From Antedon bifida (lineage: Eukaryota; Echinodermata; Crinoidea; Comatulida; Antedonidae): a stretch of 64,000 nt of DNA. The stretch spans positions 5,766,001 to 5,830,000 of the forward strand of contig OY727097.1 in NCBI GenBank assembly GCA_963402885.1. Direction: 5' to 3'. Shown here in pieces: positions 1 through 50,400 of the stretch (position 1 is the first letter of the stretch; every line of letters starts with the position of its first letter). The notes below the pieces were generated by a model. It was not told the origin of the DNA, searched no databases, and saw only the letters and a program-made list of their open reading frames with translations. The position numbers and the translations under genes are program-made.

Positions 1-1901
1 CATTTTTACTACATTATTATATTTCCAAGTTATGAACTTATTGGTAAACGAAGACAGTTATTAAGTGATTGATACAAAGCTATTTATAATATTAATGGTC
101 TGCTAGACTTAATCTTACTCTCGTTCTAGTAGAGAACTATGATGTGTTATTCTTTCAGTTCTAATCCATTTCTCTTTTTCAAATTTCTTAAATGGATGAC
201 CAAGATTATTAAAGTATCATTTTGAATCTTCAAAGAGAGAAAAGTATTTGGTTATCGCTGATTTTTTACATATTTTTTGTTGGTATAATTATAATTTTGA
301 TTAAAACACCCAAAAGTATTTAACTCCAGTTAAGAAAAGAAAGAATATATATTTGAACACTACAGCCAACCACCATTAATTTTGTTGCGTCCAGAAGGTG
401 GTGTCCCCTTGATAGATGTTCTACTGTTTTATTATGGTACTGTATGTGCACAATTTGACATAATTGTTGGATATTAGACATTGATGTTTCCACTTGAAGA
501 ATAAATACTACTTTGAACAGTCTTGTTCCTGTTACCAAATACCTTTGAGACATCCCTATTAAGGGGGAAACATTTCTATGAAAGGAAAGGTGGGCAATAT
601 GTTTTATAATTCTATGGCTAATCCCTGACACAAATTTCTTATTAATAGAGGATGGGACATTAATGTTTCCAATTCATATAATACTACTTTGAGCAGTCTT
701 GTGTCTAACATCCCCATTAAGGAGACACTTTGTCCTTAATAGGAAGTCTACTGTAAACAACCTTATTATTTTATTAAGAACAGCAAAAAATAAAATAAAA
801 GTTATTATTAAAGTTTGGTATATTTCAAGCATATTTCTAGATCAATACATTTATATATTCTGTAATAATATGATATTTCATGTGGCAAGATTATTCACAC
901 ATTTTTTTTTTAAATTTTACTTTGCATCAAAATATGTAATTAGAATTTATAGATATTAGTATTGTATGACAAATGTTAGATCTAAAAAGCAGTACCATCT
1001 TTGGAAATGTCAATGTTAAAAGGTAGGCCTTCTGAAATGCTATGGGGAAAAGTCGACGGAATAGCAGAGTTGTTTCAAATTTGTTTTGACTTTCTGTTTT
1101 CGAAAATTGATGCTAATATGTTTAATTTATAAAAATAATAGTAATGTTAGCATAACAGTATTTAAATGTAATTTCAATAAGTAATTAGGGGGCACGGTCC
1201 GCAGATGGGCCAATATCCAATAGGGATGCTCGGTTATACAAAAACATGTTTGGTTTGTAACAGATTGGAATTAATTTGTTGACGTAAAAATATATATACA
1301 CATTTAATATAAATCTAGTGAAATGATATTTAAATAAAATTAGCATAATACAATTATTGATTAAAAAATGTGAATATTGAATTCAACATAATATTCAAAA
1401 ATGTACATTTTATTATCATTTTATCATATTGAAACAACACATTTTATTCATCCAATTCTTATGTAAATTCTTGTGTCAAAAGCATTATAAATGTCTGGCC
1501 GTTAGATCTTACAGAAGCTCCCGTCTAATTGGTCGGTGATGATTGCCGAGTTATTTTTACGCATATTCTTACACCTGTGATAGACGACTGTCAACTCACT
1601 AATGACCAGGTGAAAGTTTAATTAATTCATGAATAAATTAAACAGTTCAGTGATTTGCATGTTCAGTGTAACACTTCAGATTCAAATCTAATTTATGAAT
1701 TAAAAATTAAGAAAAAAAATTCTACTTTCTACTAAATATTTAATTAAGTTAAATGTCAAAAAATATTTTGTCATTAATAATAATAATTAATTAATTTTAG
1801 AAATATCTCTGGAAACAAATTTGATTTAACCTCTAATTATTAGTAAATAAATACTTTAATTTACAATTAAATACAATAAGAATTTCATTTCTCAGTTTAC
1901 T
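1..1901. other. Non-coding left flank of the P-like transposon
   Basis: AT-rich sequence with no convincing coding exon. Around 535-760 there are degenerate copies of a GGGACACTTTGT-type motif that recurs across the window (for example 15380, 51655 and 57535), so this part is probably an old transposon remnant. Short open frames at 320-631 and 699-959 have no coding character and overlap that remnant. Nothing else was seen. Confidence 0.6.
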
Positions 1902-1935
1902 CATGGAGAAATAAGTTAGGAAGGAGTAACATCGA
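1902..1935 (+). repeat. Left terminal inverted repeat of the P-like element
   Basis: 34 bp starting CATGGAGAAATAAGTTAG, identical to the reverse complement of 8968-9001. The match stops exactly at 1935, where the next base differs. The adjacent outer bases 1895-1901 (GTTTACT) repeat at 9002-9008. Confidence 0.95.
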
Positions 1936-2180
1936 GAATACATCAAACGAATAGGCCACCCCGCCGCTAATTGGATTATCTGACTGTTACGTAACATTTA
2001 ATTGCCGTTGATCTGTCGCTTGTTAGATTTGAGCATGCGCATATCCATTGCTTTCATGTGACGCGTCATCAAGCGAGACTCGTTGTTGATGCTGATCTAC
2101 ACACGCGGCGACCATACACACAGCAGAAGAATAATTATACCACACTCGATACATTTTATTTACGCGTTTTATTTATCATT

Positions 2181-4040
2181 ATGGATTTTTATGAATTGGA
2201 GGACGAATTGGAACCCGGAATTCTCGAGGAATTGAAGTTTGCCAGCGAACATGAAGACCTGGAAAATGGTATGCTAGGTTAAAACTAGGCATTGCATTTA
2301 AGTTTAGTAGCTAGGCCTAGTTACCTGAACCTCTTCTCTTTTAAAGAGGCCTCGTCTGCCCCGGCCCACTCTAGGCTGTCTACACGACCGGGTTGATTGT
2401 AACAACGATAATTCTGAATTCGTTCGTCCTCTCTAGGCTAGGTAGTATTTTTGTAGTTTTTCTTTCTGTACGCCAAAAATTAGCCGCCCGATTTATTGAT
2501 AGGTCTAGCTAGGCTAGGCCCTATAATCTATCCATCCATGGATTTCCCCCTATAGGAGGCCTAGGCCTAATATATCATTAATTTTATTGCACAATCATCA
2601 ATAATGCATCATTCATATTATTATATTAATTATGAAGGCACGATTATCATCTGATGCAACCAACTCATCTATGACCTTGTCAAGACCTCAAACCATTAGT
2701 ATTAGTATTAGTCTGTATTTTTTAGATAAATTATTATTTTTCATTCTTATAGGACAACATGAGTTAATTTTCAATTTTATTATGCTATTTAGGTATGGAT
2801 GTTAGTGTAGGCCTACATCCAACTACTATTACCGCAACCCATCAGAAGAAGGAAGTGTCAACAAACCCAGCCAAAAACCAATCAAGGAAAAAGAGTAAGG
2901 ATTTTGAACGAATGATAACATTTTATTTTGAACATTTCATCTTTACTATATTAAATGCATTCTCATCATTTATTAAAACTGTTGTATGCTCAATAATCTT
3001 TCTTTTCTGTATTTTCAGGCATCAACCGACCCTCCAATAAGTTTAGTGAAGATGAAGCTGTCAGCAGGGTTAATGAATACGTTGATGCTGCTTTTACCAT
3101 GTTAGCGAACGATCCAGTATACAGCAATGACTTGTATCCAATAGCTCGTCAAGTGAAAAAATTGGCAAATGATCTGCAGAAGCACTCAAATACAGTCATT
3201 ATAAAAACATTTTGGGAAGACAGTACAAAATTACTTTGGAAGGTAATAACATCAGGAAACACAAAGAAAATGAAACCAGAAGCTGATGAGATGATGTGCC
3301 GGGCATTTCACCAACACATGTGTACAAGTTTGGGAAGGTGGGTCACCCTGTTAAAGGAGCTAAATGTCAACTCTGATGGGCAGCATGTAAAAACACTGAA
3401 CCTATTTTTGCAACGTACAATGTTAAGGTTAATTCTAAATGATAAGCATAAAATAGATTTGCCACATGAGCAAACGGTAACTGACATCCCACAGTTGGAT
3501 GTTCACACAGAAAAGATAATTCGGTACGTTGCCGGTTATGTGCCTTATGCGCTTGTGAAAAGATTTCGAAAGGGTAAAAGTAGTACTGCCAGAGCCTACT
3601 GTGATGTGCTCACTAAGTGGCAAGTGTGTAGTACCAACGTAACCCATTCCTTCTACGACTATTCCAAAGAATGGATCGACAAACAAAATAGATCAGGTTT
3701 GTTTGTTGTTGATGACGATGTATATCTGTTTTTTAGAAGCGTTGAAATAGAAACAAGGCAGCATTTAGCTACAAATAAACTTAATACGATGTTAAATAGT
3801 AACTATCTGGCTGATTTGTATGACCGTATTATCAATAAGGAGAATGTTCAAACTTTCTGGTGCAGAATAACCAGAGATACACTAGGTGACAATGCTTCTG
3901 CTCAATTATTACAAATTGTAGTTAGATACTGGTTGAAAATCAGAGCTAATGCATTCCTCAAGGTATACTTGAATTTAAAGAAGGAAAGCGGCAAAGTTTC
4001 AAAAAAGGGTGAAAAATCTCTCAGAAAAGAATTGTTGTAA
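2181..4040 (+). CDS. Spliced transposon-borne gene of unknown function, 403 residues
   Basis: Three exons fit together in phase with GT-AG introns: 2181-2268, 2793-2894 and 3019-4040. The joins restore GGT (Gly) and AGC (Ser) codons, and the spliced frame is open from ATG to TAA, giving 403 residues. An in-frame ATG exists upstream at 2058, but the acidic start MDFYELEDELEPG looks more natural. An AATAAA lies at 4074-4079. Near the middle of exon 3 is the motif EKIIRYVAGYVPYALVKRF, followed by Cys- and Trp-containing segments. A similar YIAGYV-type motif is usual near the C-terminus of THAP9/P-like transposases, and I do not see it in the transposase encoded on the other strand. The protein may therefore be an accessory protein or a detached C-terminal transposase domain. 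No enzyme motif was recognised. It has no family name I can give. Confidence 0.8.
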
Positions 4041-4173
4041 TATATACTATTTTGTATTTTGTGTGTGTGATGAAATAAATAACGACAATAGCTAAATTAA
4101 ATCTCAATTGTATTTTGGTTGGTTCTGAAAAGAACCGTTTGGTTTGAAAAAGTTTGCTGATCATAAATATCAT

Positions 4174-7100
4174 TTATGCATTTGGTGTCTTCTTCCTTTG
4201 AAGAGGTGAGTCATCAATAGTTTGGTCAACAATTTGGCTGCGGCAGTTGCCTCTCCTGGATGCCTTGGAACAGTTCGCAGCTACATACAGTGCATGCATA
4301 TTGTGGCCAAACTGCATTGATGTTGGGTTTGTGTTACTTCCACCACATCCTCTCTGTTTACTGAAGTACTGTTCCAACGGATCTTGATTATACTTCGCAC
4401 TTAGAACACACTCTACCCCTGGCAGGTCCAGTAGTTTTTTAGTCAACTCTACAAACGAATTAACTGTTGATGGCAAAGAATAAAAATTAATATACTTATT
4501 ATTAATTCATTTTTAATATACTTTGTCACTCTTGTGATGTCAGAACTTTTGATTAATTATTAAACAAAGTCAGCTGTAAAAAAAAAACGAAATGTACTTG
4601 CTTGTTATCTCAAGTCCATCAAGTGTTGCGGTGCTTAATAACATCCTCTTTTTTACACTCTTCTCTACATCTTCAAGCGCATTCACCTCGTCTTGCCATT
4701 CTTTAAAGAAACCCAGGAAGTCATCTTGCAACCACTTAAAAACATCAGAACAAAAAATAGTGGCAATTATTCCTTCGATTAATACAAAAATTATAGATAT
4801 TTCTCAATGTATATCCAAATGCTAATTGAAATTGAACAAAAACAATAATAAGCCCAATCATGTCCCATGTTCAATTTTTTTTAAATTTTCTATTTAAAAA
4901 AAATGTACCTTAAAACGCCAGTCATCTTTTGTCCTGTATGGCTCCATAGCTGGTTTTCTGGATCGTTTGCCTTGGAAAAAACTAGAGACATTAAGGCAAT
5001 CAAAAAATTGGTCTACCATTCTAACAAATTTGATAGTGGATGTCATGTCATGTCGATCCATAATCTCCATTGCATTTGCTGTCGAATTGCTTAACACCTG
5101 AAAATATGAAGAAAATAAAAAACATTCATGAAAAATTAAATTACAGAATTGTTTGCAAAAGAACAAGGGCTGAACACAAAACTTGCAAGTAATTACCTGT
5201 GCAGCCAAGTATACCCGCATTCTCAATGATGGAGTAAGGTGGAGGTGTTCATGCGTCAACTTGTGGAGCATCCTCAGCCCTGGACATGTGTTCTGCAATT
5301 TCACATCCCATTCATAGGTGTCAAGAAAATGACTCCACTTGATGTCTTGTTTGTTATACTTTAAATGAAGAACATTTTTAGATTTAGAAATAAGTAAATA
5401 TCATTTTCAACATGCTATAATGAAATTGGTATTTTCAATGTGGTGTATGATCATACAGTACTTACATGAAGATTCCGTGTCTTGTTATTGTAGCCAGAGT
5501 TCTCTACATTGTTTCGAAGCGTCTTTATTAGATGCGGCACATCACTGTAGAAAAAAACACTGCGATCTGGGTCTCCCTGATGCGATGTCTTGAAGACAAT
5601 GGATGAAGTGGTAGATGATGGTGAATGCAGTCTGTAAAACTTCCTGTTCGGAGTGGCACCATCAGAAACCATCGCATGAACTACAAACCCAGCTACTTCG
5701 ATCATCTCAACAGCTTCCCACATTGCCATGAACAGATCACAACTAGAAGCTCCAGTTGTTGGATAGTAGGCAATTGGAACATGCAGGTTAGAAAACAAAC
5801 CCCGGATCATCAACACCAGAACATGTGAGGCAACTGGGATTTCTTCTTCACCTCGACATCGCCGCTCAAATGAATGCATCTCATTGGCTAAGCTGCCTAC
5901 ATCTGTTGATCCAACAACTTTGCCAGAGCTTTGTGAAAAAACCAATCCTGATTTTATCTTCATTTCATCAAATAATAGCACAACATGTTTTTGCAATTCA
6001 TTACCTTCTTCATATAATTTGAGGTCTGTTACAACTCTACTTAACATCTCATGGCAAAAACCAGTTGTCACACCAGCAAAGTGGCTGTAGGGTTGGAGTG
6101 TGTTTGGATGAGGCAGCGTCATGAATCCACTTTCGCGAATTAAATTATAAGCTGACGGAGACTTGCTTTGGATAGCAATGCACCAACGTAAAATTGCCGG
6201 GTGCCAACGCATCTGCTTTCCCTTGCCCATAGATGCCAGTTGCTGCTCCCACAAAAGCTTTGCTGACGGATATTTACATAATAAACTCTCAATTTCAGGT
6301 TTTCCCATTTCCATTGTGTCTTCCATTAAGTGAGCTGCATTTTCAGAAATTAATTTGCTTTCTAGCATGTACATCTTGGAAACTTTATTCTCAAGGGAAC
6401 CACTCTTTCTTTTCAACCGTCTGTAATTACATTGTAATGTTGCTGCTTTGTTCTGCAGTTGAGAATTTGATAAATACTTGTTGGCTACCGTCAGTGAAGA
6501 CTTTTCCTTGCAGGAAGCACTTCGCATTGATGATAAATCCCCACGATAAATTCGGCAAACTGCGCACCGCTTCAGATCTTCAGCAATTAGCAATTCACAG
6601 TCATTATGTCTAATGGTGTTGCATAAATAGACATCTTTTGGTGTTATCCTTATAGGAATCTGCCCTTCTGGTCCTTTTCGTCTCTCTATCAAATCTAAAT
6701 AATCTTCATTGCCTGCACAGATTTTAGCACTCCTCAATATATCACACAGCTTGGTGAACTGATGTAATGGTAATTTTTTGTTAAAGACTTCTCCTAGAAT
6801 AGGCTGTGCTTGCAATACAACACCAGCAATGACAACTCCCCATGTCGAATCACTGTTGACTGTTAACTTGATGACAGCATCACCAGTTGGTGAAAGTCTA
6901 ATTATTAGTAATTCATCTTCATGTGGAAACAAAGAGACAAGGCTACATTTTTCTGCTTCCTTTCTGTAATCGTGAAGATTGGTAGGAATCTCCCCATCAG
7001 TCATACAAGACGCACATTGAGAATCATTGAATTTTGCAATTACAATATTGCACACTTTACTGCGGTCCTTGCTGTGGCCTTTCTTCCACCTTTTCAGTTT

Positions 7101-7355
7101 TTGCACACAGGAATAACAAATAAATGGTGGGTGGATTTCTGGATCATCATTATCAATATCTAAGCAAAAACATGACTTGATTACAGACTTGAACGCGTCC
7201 TTTGTATAAGGTGAACGATCTGAAGGAATCGCCCTGGAAATTCCACAAAGTCGACAAGTAGGTTTCAAACAAACACTGTGCAGCCCACGAATTTCACGTC
7301 GGCAATCGGCAATTGCCGACCTTATTGCCGACCTTAAATTGTCAGAGGACGGCAA
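4174..7355 (-). CDS. P/THAP9-like transposase with RAG1-like zinc N-terminus, 5' end interrupted
   Basis: Five exons on the minus strand: 7355-5466, 5358-5197, 5097-4909, 4734-4602 and 4463-4174, about 887 residues (human THAP9 is about 900, Drosophila P about 750). All joins keep frame; the fourth intron uses a GC donor (GCAAGT). Features in order: a Cys/His module at about residues 33-92 (CRLCG, then HPPFICYSC) resembling the RAG1 N-terminal region rather than a THAP finger; an RNase H-like core with VVLLFDEMKIKSG (Asp about 464) and VSDGATPNRKF (Asp about 566); HLIKTLRNNV before the insertion domain; LAAQVLSNSTANAME at the third exon border, a good place for the third acidic residue; and FSKQRGCGGSNTNPT near the end. 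These are hallmarks of P-superfamily transposases, which cut and paste DNA in the nucleus. The first ~24 residues of the present frame come from the nested element at 7281-7927. Confidence 0.88.
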
Positions 7356-7927
7356 GAGATTGCCGACCTAGAAACTAGGCTAGATCCCTCCTTTCAAGCC
7401 TCCTAGCAACAACATGGTACTTTAAGGGATCGTATCATTGAAATTTTAACAGGCATATTCACCACCATGTTGTGTTTAGTTAACAAACCATGGAATTAAG
7501 ATGATCCCTGAATTCACTCAACCATTACATCATGTTGTGTGTGCGAGCTGCATGCTTTCTATCAAGCTGGCTAGGCACAGCGCTGAGCGACAGACCTGTG
7601 TAGGGGAATACCCTGTTATGCCAAGCAAGCAACTATGCTCTGTGTACGGCTAGCTCCAGAACCACGATGTTCAGCAATTATCAAATAGAATTTATCTTGT
7701 AAATTTTAGTGTTAGGTTTTTATATTTTAGTTAATTTTGCTAGTTCTTTTTGCATAACATATAGCTAGGGAGGCTAGGCCTAGTTAGGCCCATGTTAGGC
7801 CTTAGGTTAGCAAGAGGTTAGGCCTTGGTGAATTTTCTATTTTTAGAACTGCCGAGACTGCCGACCTTGGCGAATTTAAGGTCGGCAATTTTTTGCCGAC
7901 CTTCTTTTTTCTGAATTTCGTGGGCTG
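7281..7927. mobile_element. 647-bp non-autonomous element nested in the transposase 5' coding end
   Basis: The ends form an inverted repeat (CAGCCCACGAA at 7281 and TTCGTGGGCTG ending at 7927). Just inside each end is a cluster of GGTCGGCAA / TTGCCGACC palindromes. The seven bases CACTGTG flank both sides (7274-7280 and 7928-7934), a clear target duplication. No transposase is encoded, so it is a MITE-type element. The superfamily is uncertain: CAG ends are hAT-like, but hAT duplications are usually 8 bp. Joining its two flanks restores an uninterrupted transposase start with its ATG at 7943-7941 on the minus strand. Confidence 0.88.
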
Positions 7928-8967
7928 CACTGTGTCCTGTCATCGTTCTCTGAAAACAAGAGCAATTTAATTTAAATGGCGAATGATGACCTAGAGTTGT
8001 TGTCCTAGTAGTAGTACTATCTAGGCTAGCTAACTAAAAATAAATACCTGCTTTTTTTTATTGTTAATGTTATTGAACATAGTCTAATTAGGCCGGCCCT
8101 AGATAGTAGTATTGGTATTTTTGGCATAACCCTAGGTGGTAGATTAACATTACCTCTATGATAAATAGTACATAGAACAATAGGTAGGTCTAGCCTAGTA
8201 GGACTAGACCCTAGCTAGGAGTCGAGTACTTTAGTCCTAGCCTAGCTAGTAGTAGTAGTAGGCCTACGAAAGTAATTATTTTATGGCTAATGTTAGTTAT
8301 TATTTATTGGTTTAAAATTTAAATCTAAGACCTAGCCTAAATTAAACATCGAAACAATAACTGCCCTAGACCTAGGCCTAAGTAATACAACGACCGGTGG
8401 ACCAAAATAACTACGACCGGTGGAACTAACTCCGGCTATTCGGTTCGGCGGTCGGACAGATTCGATGCTTTTCAATTCGTTGTATGTCAGCCGGACACCA
8501 TCGGAAACTGTCATGCAAGGCATCAAATGAAAGCTACAGCTTTCCTTTATTCATATAACTAAAACTTAAAACTCCAGTACAAAGGGAAACTATTAAAATA
8601 CGTGTTTGTTTCGTTGTTATATTCAAAATAATGGAATACTTACAATTGAAGAAACAAGTAGTTATTTTTGGTTGATTTTAATGATTTAATGACTGGTACG
8701 TTCGCAAAAAAATTCGGAATCCGAATACATAAAACACGCATGTGAATCCTTGTTGACAATTAACTGCGCATATGCAATGTGTTTTTTGTTCGTATTTATG
8801 TACTCCACTGTTAGTTAGACAGGGTATAGGGGTTGCTACTTAGCGGCGAGGAGCCTTGTGTGTAAGGAGATCGAACCGAGATAACGCGGCGGGCGGTCGC
8901 AGTGCAATTTAATAGGAGTCATTTGACCATGTAATGTGCTTAATTGGATTAAAATCCATGCATTACA
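7928..8967 (-). promoter_or_regulatory. Presumed 5' region of the transposase gene
   Basis: This segment lies between the nested element and the right terminal repeat, upstream of the minus-strand transposase. The original ATG (7943-7941) is preceded by TTGTTTTCAG, a good splice acceptor, so an upstream exon is likely. A 64-codon open frame at 8526-8332 on the minus strand (starts MMPCMTVSDGVRLTY) could belong to it, but no convincing donor was found. Many TAGGCCTAG-type repeats fill 7980-8330. Confidence 0.4.
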
Positions 8968-9001
8968 TCGATGTTACTCCTTCCTAACTTATTTCTCCAT
9001 G
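8968..9001 (-). repeat. Right terminal inverted repeat of the P-like element
   Basis: Perfect inverted match to 1902-1935, followed by the duplicated target GTTTACT at 9002-9008. The outermost bases CATG match the known P-element terminus. Confidence 0.95.
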
Positions 9002-10089
9002 GTTTACTGTAGTAGCTAGGTGCTAATTAAGACCTCTATTAGAAGACCTTTTTAAAGTCCAACAGTTATAATTTTATAAATGTAATAATGATCACTATTA
9101 GAAGTTTTAAATTTCACAGTTTTCTAGAAGACCTTTTCAATAATAAAATGGAAGACCTTATTACTGTTAGGTCCAACAATAAAGATGGAGTCTTTAGAAT
9201 AATTTTTTTGTAATCAACCCAATATAATATTGGATTTTTAAAATTTTTTGAAATTAAATATAAATTTAATATTAGTCTACTGTCTTAAAAGTGATTTTAT
9301 TTTCAGATAATTCTTTTATTTAATTTTGTTATAATGTTAAACATGTTTGAACATGTGTTAAAAACCGTATTCCAGATTTAAAAATTGGCAATCATTAAAT
9401 ATTCCTAGTCTACGTCTCTTGTGACCATTTTAATAACTTATGCTACGACGCTCGCCGTCTCTGTACAGTAATATAGCTTGTGTAAACTACAGCAAAATAG
9501 CTACAAGGCATAGATTTGTCCATTTTCTGTTAAATCTGAATCGGCTAAACTAAACTGACTCGATTTGATTCCTTTGTGGTTGTAACGTAAAAATATATGT
9601 TGTGCTTTTCAGTTTAGTGGCCATTTTAATAACTTATGCTTCCTCATTGGTTTTATAAAATATAAAATAGCTAATAACGAGGCATGGATATTTCCATTTG
9701 GTGTTCGTTCACTAAAAATTTTAATCGGCTAAACGCAAATGGCTGTGCAGGTTTTATTCCTTTGTGGTTATAATGTAAAAATATAATCTAGAATCTCTGT
9801 CTCTAGGAAATATTAAAAAGTAAAAATTGTTGCTATCACAATCAAACGGTTGTATCTCAATTTACTAAAAAAGGAATGCTGAGCCTGAAAGTTTTGTAGG
9901 AAATTTGTTTTTAAATTTGTACATTTGGAATGCATCTACCATTTACATTTTTAAAAGAAGTCATGACGTGTATTTAAGTATTACTAATACAGTAAAAAAT
10001 ACACCTGAAATTAAGTCTGAATTTATTGGTATTTCACACACACGATATATCCATCTAGTAGTCTAAAGTCTATTAACTTCATATTCTAA
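9002..10089. repeat. Right flank of the transposon with a diverged direct repeat
   Basis: Two related stretches, about 9417-9600 and 9612-9785, share CCATTTTAATAACTTATGC, an AATCGGCTAAAC motif and a CCTTTGTGGTT segment in the same order. They form a diverged tandem pair of about 190 bp. Weak relatives appear near 11730-11800 and 11890-11970. No coding exon was seen. Confidence 0.6.
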
Positions 10090-44400: not shown

Positions 44401-47400
44401 AAATAATATTAACATATATATTGTCAATCATAACTGTATATAGCTTTACTTTTTTGTTAGGAAAGAAATAGGTGCTGCATAGGCAGGATCATGTATAAAA
44501 ATAAAAAAGACAAATTTCTTGTTTCTGCCTCAAAATAAAATATTTATTATATAAATTTAATAAAAATATTTATTATTTACTTTTTTGTTGTTTGCTTTTC
44601 TAGTTTAGTAGAATGATATAGGCAACTTGTATTAGGCAAATGTAAAACAGTATTAGATATTAAACTATTTCTATCTTTGCAGAGAGCTTCACTCCTGGAG
44701 AAGACATCCAGGGTGAACTGAGCGAGTTATATTGCAGCTCATTGGCTGATATGCTCAGTGAACCCACATTATCTCCACCAATCACAGTTGGGCTTTATGC
44801 ACGATGGGGTAGTGGCAAGTGTTATGTGCTAAAGAAACTTCAAGGTAAATGTCCATACCCAAAGAGGGTGACAGCTGTAAAGCTTTGTCTACACTATCAA
44901 ACTTTATGACAACAAAATGTGATGTGCCCATATATGGACAAGATGATGACTACCATATTTGAGCATATCACTACCATATTTGGGTACATCACACCTTTTT
45001 TGTCATCATCCTTCGAATGAGTATAATTATAAATATAATACACAAAAATGATCATAAAATATCCTAAGATAACCGGAAAAAAGAACAACAGTATTTACAC
45101 CACTCCGTTCTCCAACACTTAAGAAAGAGTAAAGGATTGTCATGGGTCTGTACTGTGCTCTATGGAAGAGATCAGCCGGCATTAGAAGAAAGAAAAATCT
45201 ACCCTGATCCTTTAGGTCTAATTGGTAAGGGTATGTGGCGCAGTGTGTTGGACTGATCATAAGATTGAGGTTCAAATCCAACTCTCATCGCATTGCTTGT
45301 ATCCTTAAGATACTTTACTTACATTTGCCTCTCTCCACCCTGGTGTATAAATGGGTACCCGGTTAGATCAAGGCACAACTTTACGCTGATTACTAGCTGC
45401 ATTATGGAAGTATGTTTCCATATGTGTTTGATCCAAAAAAAAATGACTGGGGTAATAATGTTCTTATTTAAATAAATATATTTACTTGTTTTTCTTATTG
45501 CAGAGGAATTAAAACAATTTGCATCACAGAGTTTGATACCTCTACTACAGCTGACGTGGGCGATGTTTGTTGTTATTCTGTGTTTGTCTGGCTTTCTAGG
45601 TGTCATACTCTTTGTCGTGGCATCTGTTTTAGCAGCTAAGGCAGGCACTCCAACTCCTCCACCGGAAACATTGGACACGGACGACGCATCTTCTGGGCCT
45701 ATGTCGCCTCTCAAAATTGCAATCGTTGGCGGATCTGTCTTTTTTGCAGTACTATATATATTTCTATGTAAGTGATACCAATATATAACTGCCCTTTTAC
45801 TTAAAGCCAGTTTTTTTTGTACTGGGTTAAGTTTTATTTATTTCTTTTCTACAATCTAGAAATCATCAGAAAAGTTGTGTTTAATTAGTAAATATTCTGT
45901 CTCTAATATCAAGGATGTACTGTAGCTGAATTAGTCTAGTTAAGGGTGGGTAAGATAAAATATAAGACTACTTTTAGTTTGATAGTGTAGATAGCTGTTA
46001 ATAGAATGCCTTAAGATGAGCTTTAATTGGGTGGAAGACTTTGAAAGTAGGTACCTGTAGGCTGCCCACCTCTGTCCTAACATCAACAGATGCAGATTCA
46101 AGGGGAGCCCAGTCGATCCAGCAGTGACTAATTACATGCTTGTAACATGGAGGGAGATATCGTACCATCTAAATTAAAGATATTTTTTTCTCTTTGCAGT
46201 TTTCATAAAATTTAGTAGTCGTAAGAAGTGGCGTTTTGCATTGGCAATAAGTTCATGGCTAGCTAGTTGGATTAATTATATAGAATTATTGTTGAAAATA
46301 TCTTACTTGTATCCACCTTCTGCTCCACCTCAAACTAACAAAGCATTGCCAATCAGGTAAGTTTCGCTCTTTACAATTTTTTTTAAATTTCATACGCATC
46401 CAACAGCGAGCACAAACTCACCAATTACAGGATGGATAAACTATTTTATAATTTATCATGCTTATAAACTAAGTCTCATTTGAGGCTTATGGAGTTGAGT
46501 TGAAAGAATCGTGAGTTACAACCCTGGAACTAGGTCAGGATTGAACCCTGGGATTGGAAAGCAAGCAATATAATATAATAATATATATTGAATTAAATTT
46601 TGTTTTAATGTACTGTAGAAAAATGAACCACAATTCCAGAGAGCACAACTTGTATGGCAAAAAACAATTTTGCAGACACCTTTTGAAACGTTTTAGCAAC
46701 CTTTTACCAATGATAACAGATTCAATTATTGCTAATTCATTTGAACAACTAATTATATCAATATGTTTTTTTTTTAACTGAAAGATTTGTTTTTGCGGAC
46801 CGCTTGAGACTAACTAATATTGGAGGTGAGACACCGTTGGCTCGTACTGTTGGTACGTTGTGCTCGGCCGTGGAAAAGGAATTTGGATTTATTGCTTCTC
46901 GTCTTGCTCGTGTTTTACGAACAAAAGTGGAGGAAGGTTGGTTTAAAGAAATTTGCTCATTTTAATTCCTCATCATTTATCAACATCATCAATAAATCTT
47001 TCATATTCATAGAAAATAAATACATTGTTATATGATTATATTTATGATAAAACTGTTTTCATGTTTGCAGATAAATATGGTTATAAATGGAGATGTTGTG
47101 TTCCTCAATTTGCACTATCTGTTGCCATCTTTATTTGTTTTATTGTGTCGGCCATTTTGTTGGCACAATATCAATTTCAAAACACAAAAATTAACATTGT
47201 AGTATACATTTTACTTGGCTTAGTTGCTGTTGCCATTCTTGTGAACTTGCCCGTTATCATGCGCTTTATATTTGCACTCTCGCAATCTCCTAAAACCCGT
47301 GTTTTGCGCTCGGCCAAGAAAGCCGACAAAAGGAAAACAAAAGCCTTTTTACGTGTTTTGAAAAACGAGGTAGAACTCCTATCGCAGATGATCAAAAGCA

Positions 47401-50400
47401 TTGACTCATTTCTTGGAACTCAGACACGTTTGGTTGTTATCGTGGACGGTTTGGACAGCTGTGAGCAGGAACATGTTTTACGTGTATTAGACTCTGTGCA
47501 TTCGCTTTTTAACGGAACAGACAGTCCTTACATAACAATACTGGCGTTAGATCCTTATATTATAACAAAAGCCATAGATCAAAATCTTCATGAAGTCTTC
47601 AAAGAGACTAACATTAACGGGCACGATTACTTACGCAACATCGTGCACCTTCCATTTTACTTGCAAGCTGGTATACAATTGCAGGAGAATCAACAAATAG
47701 CTGCTGTCCCCACAACAAATATGCTGCCATCCTCCGTAAGTATATTGTTTTTTTTTTCTTCAATATTCTTTGGAAAAAACTTTCCTCTATTTTAAAAGTA
47801 AATCAACTCTTCGGTCAACATTTTTAATTAGCTGGTTTAAAAAAATGTTGGGAGTGAACCTCTTCAATCTGGTTAACTGCCTGTTTTTTTTTTTGAGAAA
47901 TGAAACTTATTTTAAGAATACAGATTTATTAAATATAATAAAATATTATTGTTTTTGCTTGTGCCTGAAATAGATCCTATTATAACTCACATAGAAGTCA
48001 ATGTTTTTATGTTTTCTTGTAGTTCCTTCCTTCCATTGTAGAGACTTTTCGATTTTAAAACTTCAAAAACTGAAAAACAACATATATTAAAATTGTCTGC
48101 ACATGCTTACAAACCAATTGCCGTTGTGGTAGCTTCCGCAACCGATCACAATTGCAATGTGAAGATAACACAATGCTGGTGGTTTTACAGCAAAAGTTTG
48201 CAACTCTTTGATGCTTTATAAAGTTCTGTCTACACTATCAAACTAGTTTGACAAAAAAAGTTTGATGTGTCTAAATATGGTAGTGATATGCCCAAATATG
48301 GTAGTAGTGATATGACATCATCATGTCCATATATGGGCACATCACAGTTTTAATAGAGCTTAACCTTAAAAACTGTCATGTTGAAACGTCTCTATTGTTG
48401 CATTGATAACCAGAAAACATTGTTATGTATGGTTCATGTACTGTACATAGTGTATTACAGGTCGTATTAGTGTGTAGTTCATGTATTGTATATACTGTAC
48501 ATCATTTTATTGTATAGTTTTCTGTACAGTGTAGTTTTCATGTACCTTAGAGAATGTATTTGTGTAGTAAAGTATTCTGTCTTTGAGCTTGAGTTTTTCA
48601 CATCATTTTGGGTTATTATATCAATTTCATTTGAATACAGCACACACTGAATATGCAGTTTATTGTTATCTCTCTCATCCATGTCAACTACACGTCCTCA
48701 TGCAGACACACCCATACATCTACCACACCCCTTCCTCATGCAGACACGCCCATACATCTAGCACACCCCTCGTGTTCCCACTAGTTTTGGCGTCAGGGTT
48801 ATGTATTAGGTTTACTTTTATTCGTTAAAACATTTTATTTATTCTGAGATTACCAACTTGCCTTGACAGCTTTATACCATCAAAGAAGAAAATGAGGTTA
48901 AGTCACAAGAACGACCTGTCCTTCAACGGCAAAAAGTGCTACAGTCGGTACTTATAACCCTTAATACGCCGTTTCACTTGTGCAGGGCATTGTGGGATGT
49001 CTTACTCATACTTTCATTTTTTCACCACAGCTACGCTAACAAAATAAACTACTAGATGTTTACTATCTGATACTACTACTACTGCATGCTTTTAATTTGA
49101 CTAATGAACTTTTTCGTTAGTGTATTAATCTGTTTGAGGTCAAAGGTCGTGTCCCTTACTACTGTGACATATTTTGTCTAAAAGTGAACTATTAGGTGTA
49201 TTCAATTGTTGAATTACGAGACCCTCAAACTACTTGCAAAAGATCTACACGCACAGCTCAGATGGAACAGCGAAGGACGAGGATCTAGATCTCTTTAAAA
49301 CAGACTTAGTTGGATAAGCCTATTAAATTTTAATAAAATATTCTTTGGGGGTGTAGTGATGTAAAAGGATTTAGTAATAATAGCTTAGTACATTTAGCTT
49401 AGTTAGTTTCTTAGAGCAAGAGGGATAGCATCTTTCCAAATCTGTAATCTACATTAGTCCTACTATCAGAATAAGTATCAGTTTGTAGCTTGCCACACGA
49501 GAGACAATCAATAAGTAAAAAATTCTCAAATTCTCTAAATATGGTATGATGATGATGATACAGGTAACCTTTGACCTCAAAATGTATTTCCGGTTTGCAC
49601 AGTTTTCATTTAATAATCATTTTATGTTGGGTATAGGGTATATTAACATTCACAAAGGTAAATATCACGTACAGTTTATTTCTCTGTGATTTCCTATTGC
49701 ACATTACTAATATGCATGCAATAAAAGTGACAGAAGTATATTGTCATCATGGAGATAAAAATTAATTTTTGACCTCCATATTGTCAGTAATTTCCACCAA
49801 TGCAGTGTACATAGTTTGCAGTAAATTTCAATAATTTTATCACATTTTAACAAATGTTTTTTTTATGACTCTAGAACGGATCAAACCCACCTTCACCCGA
49901 TGCTGTTCGAGCTAATGGATCAAAGCGCCCCCGAATGTCTTCCGTAAATCAATCCTCTGTCACCAACACACGCGATGTCTCCAAATTGTTAATGTCGGAC
50001 GAGCAGTTTAGTGATTTAAGTCCGCGTAGTATGAGACGTCTTCTTAATATTGTGTCTGTGACTGGTAAGTATAACATTTTAACTGTATTAAGCTCTGTCT
50101 ACACTATCAAACTGGCTTGACAAAAAAAAGTGTGATGTGCCCAAATATGCTAGTGATATGACATCATCATGTCAATATATGCACATTTTTTTTCACATAA
50201 AATTTGATAGTGTAGACATCACTTTAAAGTTGTAGTCATGGTGTTTTGGGAAACAATTTTTTTTATTCTATAAATTTTATTTATTTCCTGGTAACACTTT
50301 GGGGGAGGATCAGGAGTGTACCTTTGGGTTCTTTTAATTTCTTATGACTCATGGTCCCACAGGATATTCAGCCTGGTTCAATGTATTTTTCTTTTATCAA

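Follow-up and report, generated by a model that had tools for sequence, protein, structure and literature searches.

We describe a transposon of the crinoid Antedon bifida, probably an autonomous P-type cut-and-paste element, whose transposase has lost the N-terminal THAP finger to a zinc module that is a probable homolog of the central non-core domain of RAG1 (CND, also known as the Chapa domain), with a ZAD-like treble clef and a third CxxC pair. At the level of sequence, the fusion of this module to a P core is evident, as are its recurrence in several diverged families, the intact terminal repeats (TIRs), the 7-bp target-site duplications and the near-identical copies of the element.

A recently mobile element in Antedon bifida

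The stretch that we analyzed (64,000 nucleotides of contig OY727097.1, hereafter the window) contains one copy of the element, which measures 7,100 bp including a 647-bp insertion; intact copies measure 6.45 kb (Table 1). The 34-bp TIR opens with the letters CATGGAGAAATAAG. When 1,830 bases of the window were searched against the genome (315.6 Mb in 27 contigs), at least 20 matches were returned: counting the window, 15 of these cover the entire 1,830 bases with a printed identity of 100%, another does so at 96%, and four are partial. At least 14 copies outside the window therefore match over the searched stretch. The target-site duplication is 7 bp long in all 11 complete copies as well as in the window copy. 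The 11 complete copies differ from one another at 0 to 8 of ~6,440 positions (55 pairs, gaps excluded), indicating that the element family moved recently. Two copies on contig C9 (L016 and L017, about 27.81-27.83 Mb) stand head to tail with 7 bp, ATCAGAC, between them.

The window copy itself cannot produce the native transposase, as the insertion breaks it at codon 6. The minus-strand open reading frame (ORF) found there (7355..5451) has 634 codons, and its first ~22 residues are non-native and derive from the insertion. The insertion contains repeated TGCCGACC words and has relatives elsewhere in the genome (40 of 105 candidates scored): nine more span its full length at 94-97%, one does so at 80%, and others are shorter. 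Elsewhere in the window, two long plus-strand ORFs (47025-47795 and 53803-55659) resemble, by eye, parts of what we take to be a KIDINS220-type host gene.

Table 1. Coordinates of the element and its parts in the window
Feature	Position	Strand	Remarks
Left target-site duplication	1895..1901	.	GTTTACT
Whole P-type element, window copy	1902..9001	.	From alignment to copies, TIRs and target-site duplications
Left TIR	1902..1935	+	CATGGAGAAATAAGTTAGGAAGGAGTAACATCGA, 34 bp, perfect
Candidate subterminal site	1968..1978	-	TAATCCAATTA, 32 bp inside the TIR
ORF2	2997..4040	+	347-codon open frame, convergent to transposase; predicted mostly helical
Transposase exon 5	4174..4463	-	RNase H C-terminal part (PF21789, 1.8e-9), inferred catalytic E800, stop
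Transposase exon 4	4602..4734	-	Followed by inferred GC-AG intron
Transposase exon 3	4909..5097	-	Part of GTP-binding insertion domain
Transposase exon 2	5197..5358	-	Part of GTP-binding insertion domain (PF21788)
Transposase exon 1	5466..7943	-	Native ATG 7943-7941; split by insertion; splice sites inferred
TNP-like RNase H N-terminal domain	5631..6065	-	Catalytic D441 and D543 by alignment to 6p5a
Tnp_P_element HTH domain	6093..6362	-	Residues 310-399; PF12017, 3e-4, 21.6 bits, under its cut-off of 23
RAG1-CND/Chapa/ZAD-like zinc module	7005..7280	-	Residues 4-95 of native protein
Non-autonomous insertion	7281..7927	.	TIR CAGCCCACGAA; 7-bp target-site duplication CACTGTG; splits transposase codon 6
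Candidate subterminal site	8941..8951	-	TAATCCAATTA, 16 bp inside the TIR, transposase 5' side
Right TIR	8968..9001	-	34 bp
Right target-site duplication	9002..9008	.	GTTTACT

The transposase has a P-type core and no recognizable THAP finger

In an intact copy (L010), the native protein begins MTGHSVCLKPTCRLCG. Our gene model, predicted from the DNA alone, has four introns (three GT-AG and the last GC-AG) and encodes 865 residues; it is open in all 11 complete copies, nine of which specify identical proteins and two of which carry one change. The 612-codon frame that runs from the native ATG and holds module and P core together is likewise open in 11/11.

Searches of Pfam and the PDB matched the core to PF21787 (TNP-like_RNaseH_N, 2.5e-24), PF21788 (TNP-like_GBD, 8.1e-12), PF21789 (TNP-like_RNaseH_C, E-value in Table 1) and the P transposase 6p5a (6.7e-10). 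Judged by these profiles, the core is P-type, an RNase H domain with a GTP-binding insertion. The inferred DDE residues are D441, D543, and E800; both D regions align to 6p5a, and E800 is taken to be the catalytic glutamate from its motif. The transposase gave no match to THAP (PF05485) at E<=10 in a search whose HMMER filters drop most weak matches; THAP matches do appear elsewhere in the same genome. An earlier, sequence-only reading of this locus had proposed a P-type transposase that starts with a RAG1-like zinc module instead of a THAP finger, quoting the motifs CRLCG and DIDNDDPEIHPPFICYSC; both motifs are present in the window ORF, and the searches agree with it on the P-type core and the absence of THAP. 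Neither a RING domain nor a RAG1 core was found in exon 1 by hmmscan.

The module shares three CxxC pairs with Chapa proteins

At the transposase N terminus, the cysteines follow the pattern CxxC-x42-CxxC-x30-CxxC, together with IHPPxxCxxC; in the native protein of the intact copy, the pairs begin at residues 12, 58, and 92 and the HP lies at 53. A basic stretch, KLKRWKKGHSKDRSK, comes after the second pair. We aligned five modules of this genome (window family, L026, L037, L038, and L039), excluding the partial modules L043-L048, of which L045 and L047 were in a first alignment. The pairs in these five modules are spaced by 38-45 and then 30-34 residues, and in 5/5 the HP precedes the second pair by 5 residues. 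Two proteins of the same genome that join a Chapa domain to a RING (L031 and L040, which we call Chapaev-like by architecture only) have spacings of 40-48 and then 23-24 and the HP in the same position. Three CxxC pairs with an HP before the second are present in all five P modules and in both Chapa modules.

The L031 locus, the one that we read in a cluster on contig C8 (21.55-22.21 Mb; L031-L036 and others), encodes a RING as well as the Chapa domain. This cluster holds 19 ORF matches to RAG1_imp_bd in about 0.65 Mb; for 17, the frame has 326 codons. Two ORFs in the 5 kb downstream of L031 were scanned for a Chapaev core, and neither exceeded any family cut-off.

The module stands between the RAG1 CND and the ZAD

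To compare the module with known structures, we searched 177,635 PDB sequences with a profile of the five modules. Among the 15 sequences returned at E<=10, the RAG1 N-terminal domain 21wb_A was first (4.3e-5; domain E 0.0021, bias 6.8 bits), followed at lower ranks by USP36 (0.0055), the ZAD 7po9 (0.021), and full-length RAG1 (0.054). A profile of three modules (window family, L026, and L038) also placed 21wb_A first (0.0034), above the ZAD (0.032). RAG1 led the single-sequence searches with L039 (0.0035), L037 (0.039), and the Chapa protein L031 (8.8e-5), while the window module alone, searched with phmmer, gave rabphilin as its top match and RAG1 as the last of nine (E 3.4).

Against Pfam, the modules were scored as fragments of 100-110 residues against cut-offs of 23.3 bits for RAG1_imp_bd and 28 bits for zf-AD. 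The window module alone prefers zf-AD (1.8e-5, 25.3 bits) to RAG1_imp_bd (0.58, 10.1 bits), as do L026 (22.4 versus 15.6 bits) and L038 (27.1 versus 9.4), whereas L037 (23.1 versus 27.6) and L039 (16.7 versus 31.1) prefer RAG1_imp_bd and pass its cut-off; the zf-AD cut-off is passed by 0/5. At E<=10, both families match all five fragments (best 2.3e-7 for RAG1_imp_bd and 4.8e-6 for zf-AD), and each of the nine other families listed matches one fragment. These scores vary with the stretch submitted: L037 reaches 18.8 bits against RAG1_imp_bd over a 526-codon stretch, below the cut-off, and 27.7 with its neighbors in the genome search, in which the L038 locus with its neighbors scores 28.4 against zf-AD, just over the cut-off. 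The Chapa fragment of L040 matches RAG1_imp_bd at 2.8e-6 and zf-AD at 0.0072; over 298 residues, its RAG1_imp_bd match falls to 0.014, below the cut-off. A ZAD-like N terminus at L049 (1-621, minus strand) apparently belongs to a host protein, with no C2H2 domain in the stretch read; its fragment matches zf-AD, with no match to RAG1_imp_bd, and its PDB search did not return RAG1.

Structure prediction points toward the ZAD with low significance. AlphaFold2 modeled the module from five sequences with a pLDDT of 78.5 and a pTM of 0.71, its end being poorly predicted, and Foldseek returned 15 PDB matches, all of them weaker than E 0.001. At the head of the list are the ZADs 7pok_C, 7po9_A, and 7po9_B (E 0.47-0.62, probability 0.44-0.75); RAG1 21wb is not among the 15, in a library that possibly lacks it.

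Could the module simply be a ZAD, that is, a protein-protein dimerization finger that resembles RAG1 through a shared treble-clef zinc pattern? We hold this to be unlikely, with an appreciable chance of being right. The Pfam preference of three modules, the ZAD fold matches, and the L038 score in its genomic context all speak for it. Yet two of the five fragments pass the RAG1 cut-off and none that of zf-AD, RAG1 ranks above ZAD 7po9 in both profile searches, and P and Chapa modules have in common (7/7) a third CxxC and an HP placed 5 residues ahead of the second CxxC. ZADs dimerize and precede C2H2 arrays; the hmmscan matches of the window protein include no C2H2 domain after the module. The two readings are not exclusive, because ZAD and the RAG1 CND may themselves be related; we infer that ZAD, Chapa/RAG1-CND, and the P-core module form one group.

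A second alternative is that an unrelated C4 zinc module converged by chance on the CxxC and HPxxxC spacing. Short cysteine-rich modules do score by chance, as the ranks of USP36 and rabphilin in the searches above illustrate. When the P modules were aligned by hhalign to a profile of the two Chapa sequences, however, the scores were 82.1 (five modules), 66.1 (three), and 46.9 (window alone), while the best of 200 cysteine-preserving column permutations reached 22.7, 30.5, and 21.6, respectively. Together with the two RAG1_imp_bd cut-off passes, these values make convergence very improbable. With all five modules, the hhalign match takes in the first 65 columns, as far as the second CxxC, and among the alignments printed the third CxxC is aligned to RAG1 in the L039 match only.

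The likeness to the RAG1 N terminus, the central claim of the sequence-only reading, is supported by the family profiles, both of which rank RAG1 21wb_A first, and is weaker for the window sequence by itself. That result tells only half against the claim, because the single sequence goes to zf-AD, a family that appears related to the RAG1 module, and not to an unrelated zinc finger. Against our overall reading we also count the window module's RAG1_imp_bd and phmmer values, the weak ZAD folds, the bias in the five-module RAG1 hit, the long-stretch score of L037, the L038 locus with its zf-AD pass and without a listed core, and the monomeric state of the CND in solution (passages of PMC3124419). 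The module stands between two known families, ZAD and RAG1-CND, and homology to the latter is the reading that we favor.

The module recurs beside P cores of one group

The module and a P core share one ORF in the window family and in two other families, L026 and L037. At L039, an HTH-type P segment comes next, in L041 (PF12017, 0.032), and a P core follows about 5 kb further; no P core beside L038 is in the genome list of cores. The genome also has P cores with THAP: at six places, a THAP match precedes a P core on the same strand by no more than 3 kb (core and THAP lists compared by hand).

When 11 sequences of the RNase H N-terminal region were placed in a tree, six module-group cores separated from five others with an ultrafast bootstrap of 100; three of nine fetched cores were left out, L055 for a stop and L057 and L058 as partial. 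In four of the six module-group cores, module and core lie in one ORF (window family, L026, L037, and L043, the last with the module's second half), and the remaining two (L025 and L056) have it nearby in another frame or exon. Two of the five cores outside the group have a THAP listed nearby. A simple script found no terminal repeats with a 7- or 8-bp duplication at L024-L028.

A convergent second gene belongs to the element

ORF2 is part of the element and is conserved across several related P-type families. Its frame is open at 16 places in the genome, and three relatives that we aligned show 28-45% identity. Relatives convergent to a P core occur at L025, L026 (in pieces), C11:12579339, C8:20156598 (beside L037), and C7:18770088, the last with a core and no listed module; for those at C11:13101937 and C1:20419359, a core is absent from the genome list.

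The protein matches nothing in Pfam over cut-off and no PDB sequence at E<=10. Its predicted structure (pLDDT 76.9) gave 226 matches in a fold search, all above E 0.001, the best at 0.24, and none credible. We considered a RAG2-like partner and, as far as tested, rejected it, given the mostly helical prediction and the lack of a Pfam, PDB, or fold relative. ORF2 is probably an accessory protein of the element, and our guess is a cofactor of transposition or end binding.

A subterminal word may be the site of end recognition

The 11-bp word TAATCCAATTA occurs exactly twice in the window, at both subterminal positions of the element, where it forms a direct repeat. In 5/5 copies checked, its distance inward from the TIR is 16 bp on the transposase 5' side and 32 bp at the other end. 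A common word of this length at the two ends was reached in 0/300 shuffles of the inner 66 bp, 2/300 over 116 bp, 2/300 over 166 bp, and 3/60 over 366 bp; because the word was chosen after the fact and shuffles of longer stretches do reach its length, these counts should be interpreted with caution.

According to passages of PMC7776569, the THAP domain of Drosophila P tethers the protein and binds sites adjoining the TIRs, 9 and 21 bp away. The unequal spacing of TAATCCAATTA at the two ends resembles this arrangement; that the word is a binding site of the transposase is our guess, made after it was noticed. In our reading, the module would stand in for THAP by holding the transposase at the two ends of the element, perhaps at TAATCCAATTA, and the P core, with its GTP-binding insertion and DDE residues, would carry out cutting and joining with a stagger of 7 bp.

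Alternatively, the module may be regulatory or, in line with its name in Pfam (RAG1 importin binding), serve nuclear import, leaving the HTH alone to recognize the ends. The RAG1 CND contributes to nuclear localization (passages of PMC3124419), and the basic stretch after the second CxxC fits this role. On the other hand, the same source describes the CND as binding two zinc ions and preferring double-stranded DNA, and the N-terminal finger of Drosophila P gives site-specific binding (passages of PMC7776569), so that its replacement would need a substitute. We regard a purely regulatory or import role as rather doubtful.

Implications for the origin of RAG1

If the module is homologous to the RAG1 CND, as we favor, this part of the front end of RAG1, the enzyme that cuts antibody genes, appears to be shared between unrelated cutting enzymes. 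We tentatively suggest, with somewhat less than even confidence, that the N-terminal zinc domain of RAG1 has a ZAD-like fold and is mobile, having moved between the P superfamily of DDE transposases and the unrelated Chapaev/Transib/RAG superfamilies. Kapitonov and Koonin (2015) stated, in passages of PMC4411706, that RING and Chapa domains occur in no known transposable elements outside the Transib/Chapaev group and that the domain architecture argues for one ancestor that joined Chapa, RING, and catalytic core; a P-type family with a Chapa domain would therefore weaken that parsimony argument. Were the mobile-module proposal true, the module's presence beside the RAG1 core would be no proof of joining in a Transib-type common ancestor, and the P family would offer an independent, recently active system for studying this part of RAG1.

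Portions of PMC8355894 and PMC2996935 say that N-RAG-TP of Aplysia encodes a protein like the RAG1 N terminus, and portions of PMC7776569 that THAP domains are confined to animals. A 2011 study judged the zinc spacing of the CND to differ from all motifs described until then (part of PMC3124419). Among the titles and abstract openings listed, we found no report of a Chapa/RAG1-CND module on a P core, although Repbase may contain a description, and the literature searched had no paper with ZAD and RAG1 together as whole words. The match of the module to both RAG1_imp_bd and zf-AD provides a testable fold for this RAG1 region, and a recently active transposon would permit a direct test of the role of a RAG1 non-core domain and of a P transposase working without THAP.

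Comparison with known systems

The insect ZAD is the best single-sequence Pfam match and the closest predicted fold of the window module, which nonetheless scores below the zf-AD cut-off. The Chapa plus RING proteins L031 and L040 have the same module by hhalign; they differ in that the third CxxC lies closer and a RING comes next. With the RAG1 CND, which the family profile ranks first in the PDB, the module shares CRxCG, D-x3-D-x4-HP-x3-C-x2-C, and a third CxxC; here, however, RING and ZDD are absent behind it, the core is of P type whereas that of RAG1 is Transib-type, and the duplications are 7 bp compared with 5 bp for RAG1/RAGL.

Like the P element and THAP9, the transposon has an RNase H core with a GTP-binding insertion, an HTH, an inferred DDE triad, and cut-and-paste movement with short duplications. 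Its TIR starts with CAT, as does that of zebrafish Pdre2 (CATACC); the Drosophila P TIR begins CATG. The duplications are 7 bp long here versus 8 bp in Drosophila P and Pdre2; we took neither an 8-bp duplication nor a THAP finger, both typical of the P superfamily, as defining. What sets this element apart from the P element and THAP9 is that it lacks THAP and carries instead a RAG1-CND-like module and a convergent second gene.
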